64,000 bases of DNA, from contig NZ_AUEG01000001.1 of the NCBI RefSeq assembly GCF_000425865.1, positions 1-64,000 of the forward strand. The letters are read 5' to 3'. The notes under the pieces are model-generated. The model did no database searches and was not told the origin of the DNA. It worked only from the letters and a program-made list of their open reading frames with translations. The DNA is from Lacticigenium naphthae DSM 19658. Its GTDB lineage: Bacteria; Bacillota; Bacilli; Lactobacillales; Carnobacteriaceae_A. This document shows, piece by piece, positions 1,317-6,252 of this stretch (positions within the stretch are counted from its first letter, which is position 1; the number at the start of each line of letters is the position of its first letter). The position numbers and the translations under genes are program-made.

Positions 1317-1711
1317 AATGCAAATTACTGTAAGCCATGTTCTGTCTAGAAAGTGGATCAGGAATCACTTTCCGAGATAATCATCTGTCTGCAAAGTCAA
1401 AGACTCTGCCTCTTTCTTTCGTTCATTTCCGAAGAAAAAGTGCCCCTACCAATGTTTGGGTTGCTCGCTCGAGGGGTTTACCGCGTTCCACCATTTCCGT
1501 TTCCAAAAATGCTTCGTCACTGTGGCACTTTCAAGAATACTCAAGCATAGTCAAAGACCGTAGCTTTTTTTTCTGCCGTCTCTTTAGCAAATGCTAAAGG
1601 CCCCAGCTTATTTTTTCGCTGAGCACGAACACTACAAGCAATCTCAGCTTGTGCGAGCATGGACTTTCCTCACACATCTTTAAAAAGGTGTGCGATTATC
1701 CGTAATTTGCA
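1317..1711 (-). ncRNA. rnpB: RNase P RNA, bacterial class B
   Basis: Catalytic RNA subunit of ribonuclease P, which removes 5' leaders from tRNA precursors. Read on the minus strand, it contains the near-universal GAGGAAAGTCCATGCTCGC block close to the 5' end, and the ACAGAACATGGCTTACAG block close to the 3' end. The two ends pair over GCAAATTAC/GTAATTTGC (P1). At about 395 nt and with Bacillus-like spacing it fits type B. It lies between gpsB and the rlmL-type gene, as in Bacillus. Exact ends are inferred from P1 and the promoter position. Confidence 0.96.
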
Positions 1712-1716
1712 TTTAA

Positions 1717-1745
1717 ATTATTCCTTTTAATCGTCTAGCTTTGAA
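1717..1745 (-). promoter_or_regulatory. Probable rnpB promoter
   Basis: On the minus strand TTCAAA (1740-1745) and AATAAT (1717-1722) are separated by 17 bp. A start about 7 nt downstream falls exactly at the first base of the P1 helix of rnpB. The promoter overlaps the 3' end of gpsB. Confidence 0.6.
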
Positions 1746-2035
1746 CCAAATACATGCCGCTCCAAATTTGACAACCGTTTGAGGATGTCAAAATTGGTGA
1801 CCGTGGTAGTAGATCCTCCGCCACTTACGGAAGAAGATCCTCCTCTTGATGTTTCGTCTAATTTATTGACTAATCGATCATTTTCAGACCGCAAGTTGTT
1901 GATTTCACTTTGGAACGCTTCATAGTCGCGTATAACAACATCCAAAAATTCATCTACTTCTGTTTGGTTGTATCCACGCATACTGGTTTTAAATTCTTTT
2001 TCTAAAATTTCTTTAGGCATTAACTCGTTATTCAT
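1727..2035 (-). CDS. gpsB: Cell division/peptidoglycan synthesis regulator GpsB
   Basis: GpsB is a DivIVA-like cytoplasmic coiled-coil protein that docks class A penicillin-binding proteins at the septum and shuttles them to the lateral wall. The N-terminal KEFKTSMRGYNQTEVDEFLD segment is the membrane/PBP-binding DivIVA fold, followed by a coiled coil (about residues 35-65), a Ser/Gly/Thr linker and a short C-terminal trimerisation helix ending LERHVFG. I start at the ATG at 2035 (102 aa); an upstream in-frame GTG at 2047 lies inside the ribosome binding site GAGGTG. Its known partner PBP1 (ponA) is encoded 1.4 kb away. Confidence 0.95.
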   Translation of the reverse strand: MNNELMPKEILEKEFKTSMRGYNQTEVDEFLDVVIRDYEAFQSEINNLRSENDRLVNKLDETSRGGSSSVSGGGSTTTVTNFDILKRLSNLERHVFGSKLDD

Positions 2036-2093
2036 GTCAGATAGCACCTCTTCTGTTTAACTGGTTTACACAAGAATAGTTTTTCACTCCCTT

Positions 2094-2102
2094 AGTATAC
2101 CA
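2094..2102 (-). promoter_or_regulatory. Extended -10 promoter of gpsB
   Basis: The minus strand reads TGG TATACT (TATACT at 2094-2099), an extended -10 element about 60 bp before the gpsB start. No good -35 box is visible, which is common with the TGN extension. Confidence 0.55.
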
Positions 2103-2152: not shown

Positions 2153-2707
2153 CTAATCGATAAATCCGTCATCTTCTTCGCGCACGCTTTCCTCCAGATC
2201 CTCGAATGTAATCAACTGTATCGGATACGGACTGTGTTCTTGCCGGTTTTTGAGATAGTTATATAAAAAGGTGCTCTTGCCTTCAAATTCCGTATCGTAT
2301 AATAGCAGCGCTCCGTGCGTATGATCGACCATGAATTGTTGGTGCTGCTGCAATTGGCGAGGCTTCGTATAGCCCTCCTTGCTTGTCCAATTGACATAGT
2401 CCGCTCCGTTGGTCACTTTTTCTAAAAGAAGCTTGTTCTCTTCATTCCATTTTTCACCAAATCCCTTGAAGGGGAAAATAATGGACAAGCGAATGTCGGG
2501 ATACTCTTTTTTTAATTCGATGAGCACTTCTCCGCTCCAGAGTTCGGTCCCGAGCTGCCCTCCAATCAAAAACCATTGCGTACCTTCTTCAATGGCTTGA
2601 ATAAAATTCTCGCGTAAGACTTTCTTGATATAAGGTAACTTGGGATCTTTTCTATTAAAAACATTTAATTCGTAAGATCGGTACCCACTAATTAATAAGT
2701 TTTTCAT
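2153..2707 (-). CDS. ypsA: YpsA family protein (DUF1273, SLOG-type Rossmann fold)
   Basis: This is a 184-residue member of the YpsA/DUF1273 family. The N-terminal LLISGYRSYELNVF and the central FLIGGQLGTELWSGEV glycine-rich loop are the family hallmarks; the fold belongs to the SLOG/TIGR00725-like nucleotide-binding superfamily. Its biochemical activity is not settled. In Bacillus and Staphylococcus, YpsA has been linked to cell division, and it sits next to gpsB there as here. Two in-frame ATG codons (2719 and 2707) are possible. I prefer 2707, because the first is only 1 nt from the GGGAAAGG box and the second gives the family N-terminus. Confidence 0.88.
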   Translation of the reverse strand: MKNLLISGYRSYELNVFNRKDPKLPYIKKVLRENFIQAIEEGTQWFLIGGQLGTELWSGEVLIELKKEYPDIRLSIIFPFKGFGEKWNEENKLLLEKVTNGADYVNWTSKEGYTKPRQLQQHQQFMVDHTHGALLLYDTEFEGKSTFLYNYLKNRQEHSPYPIQLITFEDLEESVREEDDGFID

Positions 2708-2742
2708 AAATGTTTGCATACCTTTCCCTATTTAACTACAAT

Positions 2743-2757
2743 TTGGTATAATACCAA
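2743..2757. promoter_or_regulatory. Symmetric divergent promoter core between ypsA and recU
   Basis: An inverted repeat TTGGTAT-A-ATACCAA gives an extended -10 box on each strand: TGG TATAAT on plus (TATAAT at 2747-2752) facing recU, and TGG TATTAT on minus (2748-2753) facing ypsA. Neither has a clear -35 box. The two genes are divergent and only 66 bp apart. Confidence 0.65.
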
Positions 2758-2773
2758 AAGGAGCGTGATTTTT

Positions 2774-3400
2774 TTGACTATACATTATCCCAATGGTAAA
2801 CTTTATCGACCTAAAAAATCAACTGCTTCAAAATCTGACACCCCTGCAAAAAAGAAAATCAATTACAGCAAACGCGGCATGTCTCTTGAACAAGAACTCA
2901 ACGACAGCAATGAATATTATCTTGCAACAAATCGAGCAGTGATCCATAAAAAACCGATCCCTGTTCAAGTCGTGAATGTGCACTATCCAAAGCGAAGTGC
3001 GGCAGTGATTACGGAGGCGTACTATCGTAAAGCTTCCACTACAGACTATAACGGTCTGTACCGTGGGTATTATCTCGATTTTGAAGCCAAAGAAACAAAG
3101 AATCAAACCTTGTTTCCGCTAAAAAACTTTCATGAACACCAAATCGTTCATATGCGTCAATGCAGTGACCATGGTGGAATTGTATTTGTGATTATTCTCT
3201 TTTCATTTTACAATGAACTGTATTTAATTGAAACAAAAGATATCCTTCCCTTCTGGGATGATCAAGACACTGCATCTGGTAGAAAATCGATCCCGCTTGA
3301 CTATATACGTGAAACAGGCTATAAATTAAATTATTCTCTTGCTCCTCGGATTCCTTATTTGGAAGCCGTCGATCAAATCATTGAGAAACACAAACAGTAA
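2774..3400 (+). CDS. recU: Holliday junction resolvase RecU
   Basis: RecU is a dimeric endonuclease that resolves Holliday junctions during recombinational repair and chromosome segregation in Gram-positive bacteria. The 208-aa protein carries the family N-terminus (IHYPNGKLYRPK), the NKRG-like block SKRGMSLEQELNDSNEYYL, and the nuclease core DYNGLYRGYYLDFEAKET (catalytic D and E-x-K). I start at TTG 2774, 10 nt after AAAAGGAG, because it gives the known RecU N-terminus and no ATG is available there. A longer upstream reading from 2714 would run through the promoter. It is followed 14 nt later by ponA, the conserved recU-ponA pair. Confidence 0.93.
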   Translation: MTIHYPNGKLYRPKKSTASKSDTPAKKKINYSKRGMSLEQELNDSNEYYLATNRAVIHKKPIPVQVVNVHYPKRSAAVITEAYYRKASTTDYNGLYRGYYLDFEAKETKNQTLFPLKNFHEHQIVHMRQCSDHGGIVFVIILFSFYNELYLIETKDILPFWDDQDTASGRKSIPLDYIRETGYKLNYSLAPRIPYLEAVDQIIEKHKQ

Positions 3401-3414
3401 GGAGATACATTCAT

Positions 3415-6252
3415 ATGAGTAAAGATATGTCCCGTACAGAAAGAAAGCAAGCCAAGAAAAAAGGTAAGAAAACGACACCGGATAAAAAGAAATCTTCTTT
3501 ATTGAAAAAAATCGTTATCGGTATTGTCGGTCTGCTCGTTTTACTATTTGTTGGAGGTGCCAGTTTATTTGCCTATTATGCTTCCGATGCACCCGAGTTA
3601 ACAGACGAAGCGTTGGTTGGATTCTATCCTTCGACTTTATATGATAAGAATGGTGAAGAGTTCCATACGCTCGGTGCAGAAAATAGAGAACAAATCGAAT
3701 ACGAAGAAATTCCGCAAGTATTGGAAGATGCGATCATCTCGATCGAAGATCAGCGCTTTTATGATCACTTGGGCGTGGATCCTATCCGTATTTTAGGAGC
3801 GGTATTCGCAAATGTGACGGATGGCTTTGGCGCTGAGGGTGGAAGCACGATTACCCAGCAGTTGATCAAATTGTCAGTCTTCTCTACTCTGCAAGAAGAT
3901 CAAACACTCGAGCGGAAAGCGAAAGAAGCTTGGTTGGCTGTTCAATTGGAACAAGAATTATCAAAAGAACAGATTCTTGCCTTGTATGTCAATAAAGTGT
4001 ATATGTCAGACAATACGTATGGCATGGGTACAGCGAGTGAATATTACTATGGTAAACCCATCAGTGAATTAGAATTACATGAAGCTGCTTTATTTGCCGG
4101 TATGCCGCAGTCTCCTAATGGATACAATCCGTTTACAAATCCAGAAAGAGCAAAAAGTCGTCGCGATACTGTTTTATACGTGATGGCGCAAAATGAGGTC
4201 ATTACGACTGAAGAAGCGGAAACAGCCATGAAGATTCCTGTTGAAGAAGGGTTGATCGATCATTCCGAAGAAAACATGGATGAATTGGTCTTCGATTCCT
4301 ATATCCAAGAAGTGCTCGAAGAAGTACGTGAAAAAACGGATTTGGAACCCCAAACGGCTGGTTTAGACATTTATACCAATATCGATTTAGATGCACAACA
4401 GCGAATGTTTGATATTTTGAACTCTGAAGATTACGTCGACTACCCTCTTGAACAAATGAATGCAGCGATGACAATGGTCGATGTGAAAACCGGAGCTGTT
4501 CGCGCAATCGGTGGCGGAAGAAATCAAAAAGAGTTGCGTGGATTCAATTATGCGACGGAAAATAATAGCAGTGTCGGTTCAAGCATGAAGCCCCTTACGG
4601 CATATGGCCCGGCAATTGAATATTTGCAATATTCCACATACGAGCAAGTAGTTGATGAAGCTTGGCAATGGCCAGGTACCGATACAACATTGACGAACTA
4701 CGATAACAGCTACAAAGGCCAGATGAGTATACGTGAGGCTTTAGTAGATTCAAGGAACGTTCCTGCAGCGAAGACGTTGCAAGAAGTTGGTCTAGACAAT
4801 GCTGAAGGTTTTGTCAAAGGATTGGGTATCGATGTAGATAAACTAAATGCTGGCGATACAGACGGATTGGTTGCTTCCAATGCGATCAATGGAGCTATTT
4901 CTTCCTTTGATTTAGCCGCTGCCTATGCTGCATTTGGAAACAATGGTGTCTACAATGAACCGTATACCGTCAGCAAGGTCGTTATGCAAGATGGTCGGGA
5001 AATCGAATTGACACCAAAAAGCAATAAGGCAATGGAAGAATCTACTGCTTATATGGTTACCGATATGCTAAAAGATGTGACCAATTATTATCAAAGTTCT
5101 GTCGGCATTCCAGGATTGATCCATGCTGGAAAATCGGGTACATCAAACTTTGATGCTGAAGATTATAAAAAAATGGAAGAAAAAGGCGTCTCCGTCCCTT
5201 CTGACGGTGTTCCAGATACTTGGTATACAGGTTATTCTACAAACTATGCTATTTCTGTCTGGACAGGGGTAACCAACCGAACAGAAGGATATGGTTTAAG
5301 CTTCGAAGACGGCTCACGAACCACTGCCCGTGCAATCTATGCAGAAATCATGGGATATGTATCTGAATCGGTCGATAATGGGGACTGGAAGCGTCCAATT
5401 AATGTCGTCGAAGTGGCTGTAGAAGATGGCAGCATGCCCGCTAAACTGCCTGGACCGAATACTCCAGAAGATGAAATCGTCCGCGAACTCTTTATTAAAG
5501 GGACGGAACCAACCGAAGAATCGACTGAATTCGGTGTAGAATTATCTGAACCGACCGGCTTAAAAGCAACATACGATGAAAAATCAAATGAAGTACAAAT
5601 TCAATGGGATGCGTACACATTGACAAATGAAGAGGATACTCCACTTTACGAAGTGACGATCAATGGTGAAACGACAGAAACCGAAGATACTTCTGCTGTC
5701 TACACTCCTTCTCCTGGTGAGAAAGTAACTATCAGTGTCGCAGTGGTCGCTTATGACATCACTGGACCTGCAGCTACCACTTCTGTAACTGTCCCGGGAA
5801 TAGAGTTAGGAAAAGTCACCGGATTGAAGGCCACATACAATAAAGAGGCTGATCAAGTTCAAGTGAACTGGGATGATTATCCAAAAGATGACTCCATGGA
5901 TTCTGTGACCTATAGTATTACGATCAACGGACGATCTGGAACTACTCAACAATCGCAGTACCAAATCGATGATCCTGAACCAGGTTCGACAGTTGAAATA
6001 GCTGTTGCAGTCGTTTCTAACGGAAAAACCGGACCAGCCACGACCACCAAAGTCTCCATTCCTAAAGAAGAAACCACTCCTCAAGACGAGGAAGAGCCTG
6101 AAAAAGAAACAGATGACACTTCCTCTCAAGAGCCTGAAGAAGAAACAACTCCAGATACAAGTGAAGACGATGGAAACACCGATGAGGCCGAAATGAATGG
6201 TGCCAATAAGCCCAATACCAATACGGCTGATGACACAGCAGATGAAGAATAA
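3415..6252 (+). CDS. ponA: Class A penicillin-binding protein 1 (bifunctional transglycosylase/transpeptidase)
   Basis: Polymerises lipid II into glycan and cross-links the peptides outside the membrane. The 945-aa protein has a Lys-rich cytoplasmic tail (1-32), one membrane anchor (33-55), a GT51 domain with the catalytic Glu in EDQRFYDHLG (E111) and GGSTITQQLIK, and a transpeptidase domain with S389-S-M-K392, S446-R-N448 and K573-S-G-T. The third motif is KSGT rather than the commoner KTGT. After about residue 705 come two similar fibronectin-III-like modules (beginning EPTGLKATYDE and KVTGLKATYNK) and an acidic Glu/Thr-rich tail. AAGGAG precedes the ATG. It is the second gene of recU-ponA, with a terminator after it. 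Confidence 0.96.
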   Translation: MSKDMSRTERKQAKKKGKKTTPDKKKSSLLKKIVIGIVGLLVLLFVGGASLFAYYASDAPELTDEALVGFYPSTLYDKNGEEFHTLGAENREQIEYEEIPQVLEDAIISIEDQRFYDHLGVDPIRILGAVFANVTDGFGAEGGSTITQQLIKLSVFSTLQEDQTLERKAKEAWLAVQLEQELSKEQILALYVNKVYMSDNTYGMGTASEYYYGKPISELELHEAALFAGMPQSPNGYNPFTNPERAKSRRDTVLYVMAQNEVITTEEAETAMKIPVEEGLIDHSEENMDELVFDSYIQEVLEEVREKTDLEPQTAGLDIYTNIDLDAQQRMFDILNSEDYVDYPLEQMNAAMTMVDVKTGAVRAIGGGRNQKELRGFNYATENNSSVGSSMKPLTAYGPAIEYLQYSTYEQVVDEAWQWPGTDTTLTNYDNSYKGQMSIREALVDSRNVPAAKTLQEVGLDNAEGFVKGLGIDVDKLNAGDTDGLVASNAINGAISSFDLAAAYAAFGNNGVYNEPYTVSKVVMQDGREIELTPKSNKAMEESTAYMVTDMLKDVTNYYQSSVGIPGLIHAGKSGTSNFDAEDYKKMEEKGVSVPSDGVPDTWYTGYSTNYAISVWTGVTNRTEGYGLSFEDGSRTTARAIYAEIMGYVSESVDNGDWKRPINVVEVAVEDGSMPAKLPGPNTPEDEIVRELFIKGTEPTEESTEFGVELSEPTGLKATYDEKSNEVQIQWDAYTLTNEEDTPLYEVTINGETTETEDTSAVYTPSPGEKVTISVAVVAYDITGPAATTSVTVPGIELGKVTGLKATYNKEADQVQVNWDDYPKDDSMDSVTYSITINGRSGTTQQSQYQIDDPEPGSTVEIAVAVVSNGKTGPATTTKVSIPKEETTPQDEEEPEKETDDTSSQEPEEETTPDTSEDDGNTDEAEMNGANKPNTNTADDTADEE

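Follow-up and report, generated by a model that had tools for sequence, protein, structure and literature searches.

The ypsA-recU region

The window, that is, the whole 64-kb stretch of DNA that was analysed, contains a divergently arranged gene pair, ypsA on the minus strand and recU on the plus strand, with a class A penicillin-binding protein gene of the ponA/PBP1 type following recU, and with a gpsB-like gene and RNase P RNA downstream of ypsA (Table 1). Translation of recU begins at a TTG codon, as had been proposed in a first-pass annotation made from the letters of the DNA. The same annotation had placed the two divergent genes 66 bp apart, which holds if ypsA starts at the in-frame downstream ATG at position 2707; from the ATG at position 2719, which has the better ribosome binding site, the gap measures 54 bp. 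In this gap the two genes are separated by a perfect palindrome, TTTGGTATAATACCAAA, composed of 8-bp arms around a 1-nt centre. It had been described before as a 15-bp inverted repeat with overlapping extended −10 elements, and the repeat itself, its letters, its coordinates and both −10 elements were found again, the length being corrected to 17 bp. The gpsB-like gene beyond ypsA was absent from that annotation. The candidate extended −10 element in front of this gene has the prefix TTTGG in common with the recU site.

Table 1. Features of the ypsA-recU region, with positions in the window
Feature	Position	Strand	Basis or remark
RNase P class B RNA, directly downstream of gpsB	1326..1707	-	Rfam
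gpsB-like gene, DivIVA family, downstream of ypsA	1727..2047	-	PF05103
Candidate separate gpsB promoter, extended −10 TGG TATACT, between ypsA and gpsB	2094..2102	-	read directly
ypsA, SLOG family; alternative in-frame start at 2707	2153..2719	-	PF06908
Candidate ypsA ribosome binding site AGGGAAAGG, just upstream of ATG 2719	2721..2729	-	read directly
Predicted ypsA transcription start	2741..2742	-	placed from the −10; 17-18 bp from the predicted recU start
Palindrome, perfect, 17 bp	2742..2758	n/a	8-bp arms, 1-nt centre; read directly
Extended −10 TGG TATAAT toward recU-ponA, without −35 box	2744..2752	+	read directly
Extended −10 TGG TATTAT toward ypsA, without −35 box	2748..2756 (reads 2756-2748)	-	read directly
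Predicted recU transcription start, first base of AGGAG	2759	+	7 nt after the −10
recU Shine-Dalgarno AGGAG	2759..2763	+	read directly; commonest such motif in relatives
recU, Holliday junction resolvase family, TTG start	2774..3400	+	PF03838
Rival ypsA promoter candidate TGG GATAAT, inside recU over HYPNG codons	2784..2792	-	second-best score
ponA/PBP1-type class A penicillin-binding protein, N-terminus with SRTERK	3415..6252	+	PF00912, PF00905

Two overlapping extended −10 elements and their register

An extended −10 promoter element, defined by TGn before a near-consensus −10 hexamer with a weak or missing −35 region, is present on both strands of the palindrome, and reading of the letters at a spacing of 16-18 bp revealed no recognisable −35 box on either strand. 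The −10 hexamers of the opposite strands overlap, as in bidirectional promoters with a shared −10, and the bases A2748 and T2752 serve both strands: A2748 is the −11 base of the recU element and pairs with the −7T of the ypsA element, and T2752 is the −7 base toward recU and pairs with the −11A toward ypsA. A shift of one base between the two −10 elements makes this −11A/−7T relationship reciprocal and places the predicted starts at a distance of 18 bp. Reciprocal −11A/−7T bases with starts at this distance are the most frequent arrangement of bacterial bidirectional promoters (PMC10268837; PMC12825309; here and below, published work is cited from the parts of the papers that were available).

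At the usual distance from the plus-strand −10, the recU transcript is predicted to start with the first base of its Shine-Dalgarno box and to have a leader of about 15 nt, which agrees with the earlier placement of the plus start at about this box. If a distance of 7 nt between −10 and start is assumed in both directions, the favoured T at −18 is present for ypsA (base 2759), and the corresponding base for recU is an A (base 2741). The predicted ypsA start at the ideal distance of 7 nt falls on a T of the minus strand with an A adjoining it, which makes a less good start. The published work on recU and ypsA promoters and on bidirectional promoters of Gram-positive bacteria, in its available parts, contained no mapped start for this gap.

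Scoring of minus-strand promoter candidates ranked the reverse element of the palindrome first (5.86), closely followed by a TGG GATAAT site inside recU (5.54). The small distance between these scores is in favour of a reading which we regard as unlikely, though to be taken seriously, namely that the recU promoter acts in one direction, that its ypsA half is coincidental and that ypsA is transcribed from elsewhere, either from TGG GATAAT (2792-2784) or from several weak sites. TGG GATAAT sits on conserved codons of RecU (HYPNG) and therefore has another cause for its presence, and no site in the scored stretch of the gap has a higher minus-strand promoter score than the palindrome; furthermore, a near-symmetric −10 alone has been reported to suffice for divergent starts (PMC12825309). 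As another candidate for the recU promoter, a consensus scan returned TTTGCA-18-TACAAT (2713-2742, plus strand) with 9 of 12 consensus matches, in which case the palindrome would be incidental. We consider this highly improbable, because the −35 hexamer of this candidate lies at the ypsA start codon, because the scan yields 15 such sites compared with 17.6 in shuffled sequences, and because the TGnTATAAT-type site is the one kept in relatives.

Palindromes with 8-bp arms and a 1-nt centre were produced by 0.12% of 5000 dinucleotide shuffles of the 54-bp gap; the proportion was 0.44% when the centre was allowed to be 0-4 nt long, and no shuffle produced TGNTATWATANCA. Five palindromes of the same geometry (8-bp arms, 1-nt centre) are present in the 64-kb window, and the whole genome contains 2 TGNTATWATANCA sites where 2.8 are expected by base composition from its 152 TGNTATAAT sites; thus, what sets the site apart is its position and not its existence, and the agreement with chance is a further point for the one-way reading. 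The motif TGNTATAAT occurs 152 times in the genome compared with 99 times for the reversed control, and over 60 genomes of the order TGNTATWATANCA was counted 228 times compared with 137 for its reversed control. Enrichment of TGNTATWATANCA in the order is therefore about as strong as the one that TGNTATAAT shows in the own genome, and the symmetry shows no extra enrichment. The second genomic TGNTATWATANCA site (L083 1501-1513; C4:43144-43156) has a haemolysin-III-related gene on one side and a GDSL lipase gene on the other, so that both genomic sites sit between divergent genes, two sites being too few for a test.

Perfect 8-bp arms could also be the mark of an operator at which a dimeric regulator controls both genes, and palindromes over promoters often are operators. 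No other site of the own genome matched with fewer than 2 mismatches, and with up to 3 mismatches there were 25 sites compared with 18 for a reversed control; of five more sites that were looked at (L112-L116), L113, L114 and L115 at least are inside long reading frames. An operator is recognised by a palindrome that orthologous loci have kept or that recurs at other promoters, and neither was found. The right arm is not conserved in relatives, and the one relative that has a perfect palindrome (L145, see below) has it in different letters, which fits promoter symmetry better than a single regulator. We accordingly give the operator very little credence.

Conservation of the two halves in relatives

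For comparison, 185 recU loci were used, comprising the window, 80 loci from named genomes, 24 from the family and 80 from the order, the latter taken from among the matches listed outside the family. L108-L110 (a fragment and weak second matches) were left out, and same-strain loci from two collections were merged solely via identical 18-base sites. The ypsA gene is divergent within 150 bp of recU in 121 of these loci, farther away in 8 and was not found in 56.

The recU-facing element recurs throughout this set. TGnTAnnnT precedes recU in 119 of the 121 loci with divergent ypsA, in 6 of the 8 with ypsA farther away and in 41 of the 56 in which ypsA was not found (47 of the 64 others taken together); among the divergent loci it was not found in the searched stretch of L138 and L142. 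Inspection by eye of loci named Streptococcus-like by inference, of which 20 were fetched, revealed the same forward site in 19 of 19 with divergent ypsA and the reverse TG in none of these 19. The start codon follows the −10 at a distance of 20-24 nt in 57 of the 93 distinct sites with divergent ypsA, and across the order (L002-L200) the mode of this distance is 22 nt, so that −10, ribosome binding site and start codon are tightly packed; given this tight and conserved spacing, recU mRNA is predicted to begin at or adjoining the Shine-Dalgarno box. Between the −10 and the beginning of the ribosome binding site there are most frequently 7 bases (33 of the 93 sites), and at the recU start position TTG ranks second among the codons (46 of 166 sites). 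Since TGnTAnnnT and its spacing recur across the loci, the recU-facing promoter and a predicted leader of very short length are conserved features, and a short leader together with a TTG start is ordinary for recU in the order. In Streptococcus pyogenes, leaders of 15-35 nt were reported for 43% of the coding transcription units (PMC6431027). In the Marinilactibacillus loci L005 and L009 the expected ypsA start lacks ATG, GTG and TTG, and the open frame begins behind a TGA.

The half that faces ypsA shows another pattern, and this asymmetry, a forward element that is conserved and a reverse arm that is not, speaks for a one-way promoter. A complete reverse extended −10 (T at −12 plus TG) was found 6 times among the 93 distinct divergent sites and in none of the 40 others (Fisher p 0.18). 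The three reverse bases occur jointly 6 times compared with 2.5 expected under independence (p 0.043, a value that ignores kinship and multiple looks), and the reverse T at −12 is not enriched where ypsA is divergent (53 of 93, compared with 28 of 40 elsewhere). When the divergent loci were compared with the others, which may hold another divergent gene, four Fisher tests gave p values of 0.09-0.18, two of them in the wrong direction, and selection of the symmetry for ypsA expression is unsupported by these tests. Complementarity of the arms is lower than in permuted data (mean of 1.63 compared with 1.84 matches of 6). Full 8-bp arms are found in 2 of 93 distinct divergent sites, those of the window and of L145, with 7 of 8 in L150; the permutation p value for the number of sites with full arms is 0.11 without the window, which is nothing out of the ordinary, and 0.043 with it. 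On the basis of the rarity of full arms and the low mean arm match a conserved symmetric element was rejected. The repeat had been put forward as a shared element, and with the ypsA half complete in 6 of 93 sites and arms less complementary than permuted ones it cannot be upheld as a conserved one; the comparison comes close to what the first-pass annotation itself had named as speaking against it, a palindrome not conserved in relatives.

In the Enterococcus-like genus g41 the reverse TG is present in three of four members examined (L145, L150 and L250) and absent from L165; L250, which is the same stretch as L042, has a reverse TGn TATTAT, and L145 has the perfect palindrome whose letters are unlike those of the window. 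The reverse element was also detected in two Limosilactobacillus-like loci (L048, L049) and in one Paucilactobacillus strain (L023, occurring again as L134), and its occurrence is thus sporadic. Taken from the letters and their comparison, the recU promoter appears conserved and its symmetry largely lineage-specific and sharpened here, and it probably also fires toward ypsA.

A candidate two-way promoter and its meaning

The explanation which we favour, and hold to be reasonably probable, is that in this lineage the extended −10 promoter of recU-ponA also fires toward ypsA. An extended −10 promoter of the sigma-A type would drive the recU-ponA operon, and RNA polymerase would be able to read its near-symmetric −10 backwards as well; three bases (A, C, A) would have completed this reverse reading into a full extended −10 toward ypsA. 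At any one time polymerase would bind in a single orientation and would start either recU, with a 15-nt leader from the Shine-Dalgarno box, or ypsA, with a leader of about 22 nt. The letters, the register and the conservation of the recU half are direct observations, and from these we infer the two start sites, the activity of the ypsA half and the mutual exclusion.

Two-way promoters between divergent genes are a known and common kind, of which the site in the window, as judged from its letters, is probably a modest example. The bidirectional promoters of Escherichia coli and Salmonella described by Warman, Grainger and co-workers likewise have overlapping opposite −10 elements with −11A/−7T between divergent genes; their starts are most often spaced by 18 bp, a spacing which in the window is a prediction from the letters. 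In comparison with them the site in the window has an extended −10 TGn in both directions as well, and a T at −18 toward ypsA only. The TGG TATAAT of the window is like other extended −10 promoters without a −35 box, and its recU-facing half is kept across the order, but it differs from ordinary ones by a second such element overlapping on the other strand. The order of recU followed by a class A penicillin-binding protein gene, with a promoter upstream of recU, is the same as in the recU-pbp operons of other Firmicutes (recU-pbp2 of Staphylococcus aureus, recU-pbp1a of streptococci); a second promoter inside recU was reported for S. aureus (PMC3584850) and an antisense RNA to recU for streptococci (PMC6431027).

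The claim that the two directions must compete for polymerase does not agree with the E. coli cases, since all five bidirectional promoters tested there were too weak at basal level for this; loss of one direction gave no substantial help to the other, and repression was seen once one direction was strongly activated (PMC12825309). In view of this low basal activity, a coupling of PBP1/RecU and YpsA levels is possible and not expected by default, and our analysis likewise treats regulatory coupling of recU-ponA and ypsA as possible and not indicated. In S. aureus, division was undisturbed when recU was expressed away from pbp2 (PMC3584850).

The two units have links to cell division. Overproduction of YpsA inhibits division in Bacillus subtilis (PMC6459960), and B. 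subtilis GpsB binds the N-terminus of PBP1 via an SRxxR(R/K) motif (PMC6335420). The PBP1-type protein of the window starts with MSKDMSRTERK (3415-3450, plus strand) and fits this motif, and gpsB is located in the divergent unit; its link to the palindrome promoter is uncertain because it has its own candidate extended −10 (2102-2094). A cis ratio switch, in which one polymerase site would set the ratio of recU-ponA to ypsA (plus gpsB by read-through), here and independently in the Enterococcus-like genus, is conceivable and in our estimate quite improbable.

The site provides a clean candidate for a two-way promoter outside E. coli and Salmonella, with a full extended −10 on both strands, and the candidate sits between two units that share a connection to cell division, through the block caused by YpsA overproduction and through GpsB-PBP1 binding. 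Moreover, the comparison shows how few base changes could turn a conserved one-way promoter into a two-way promoter.
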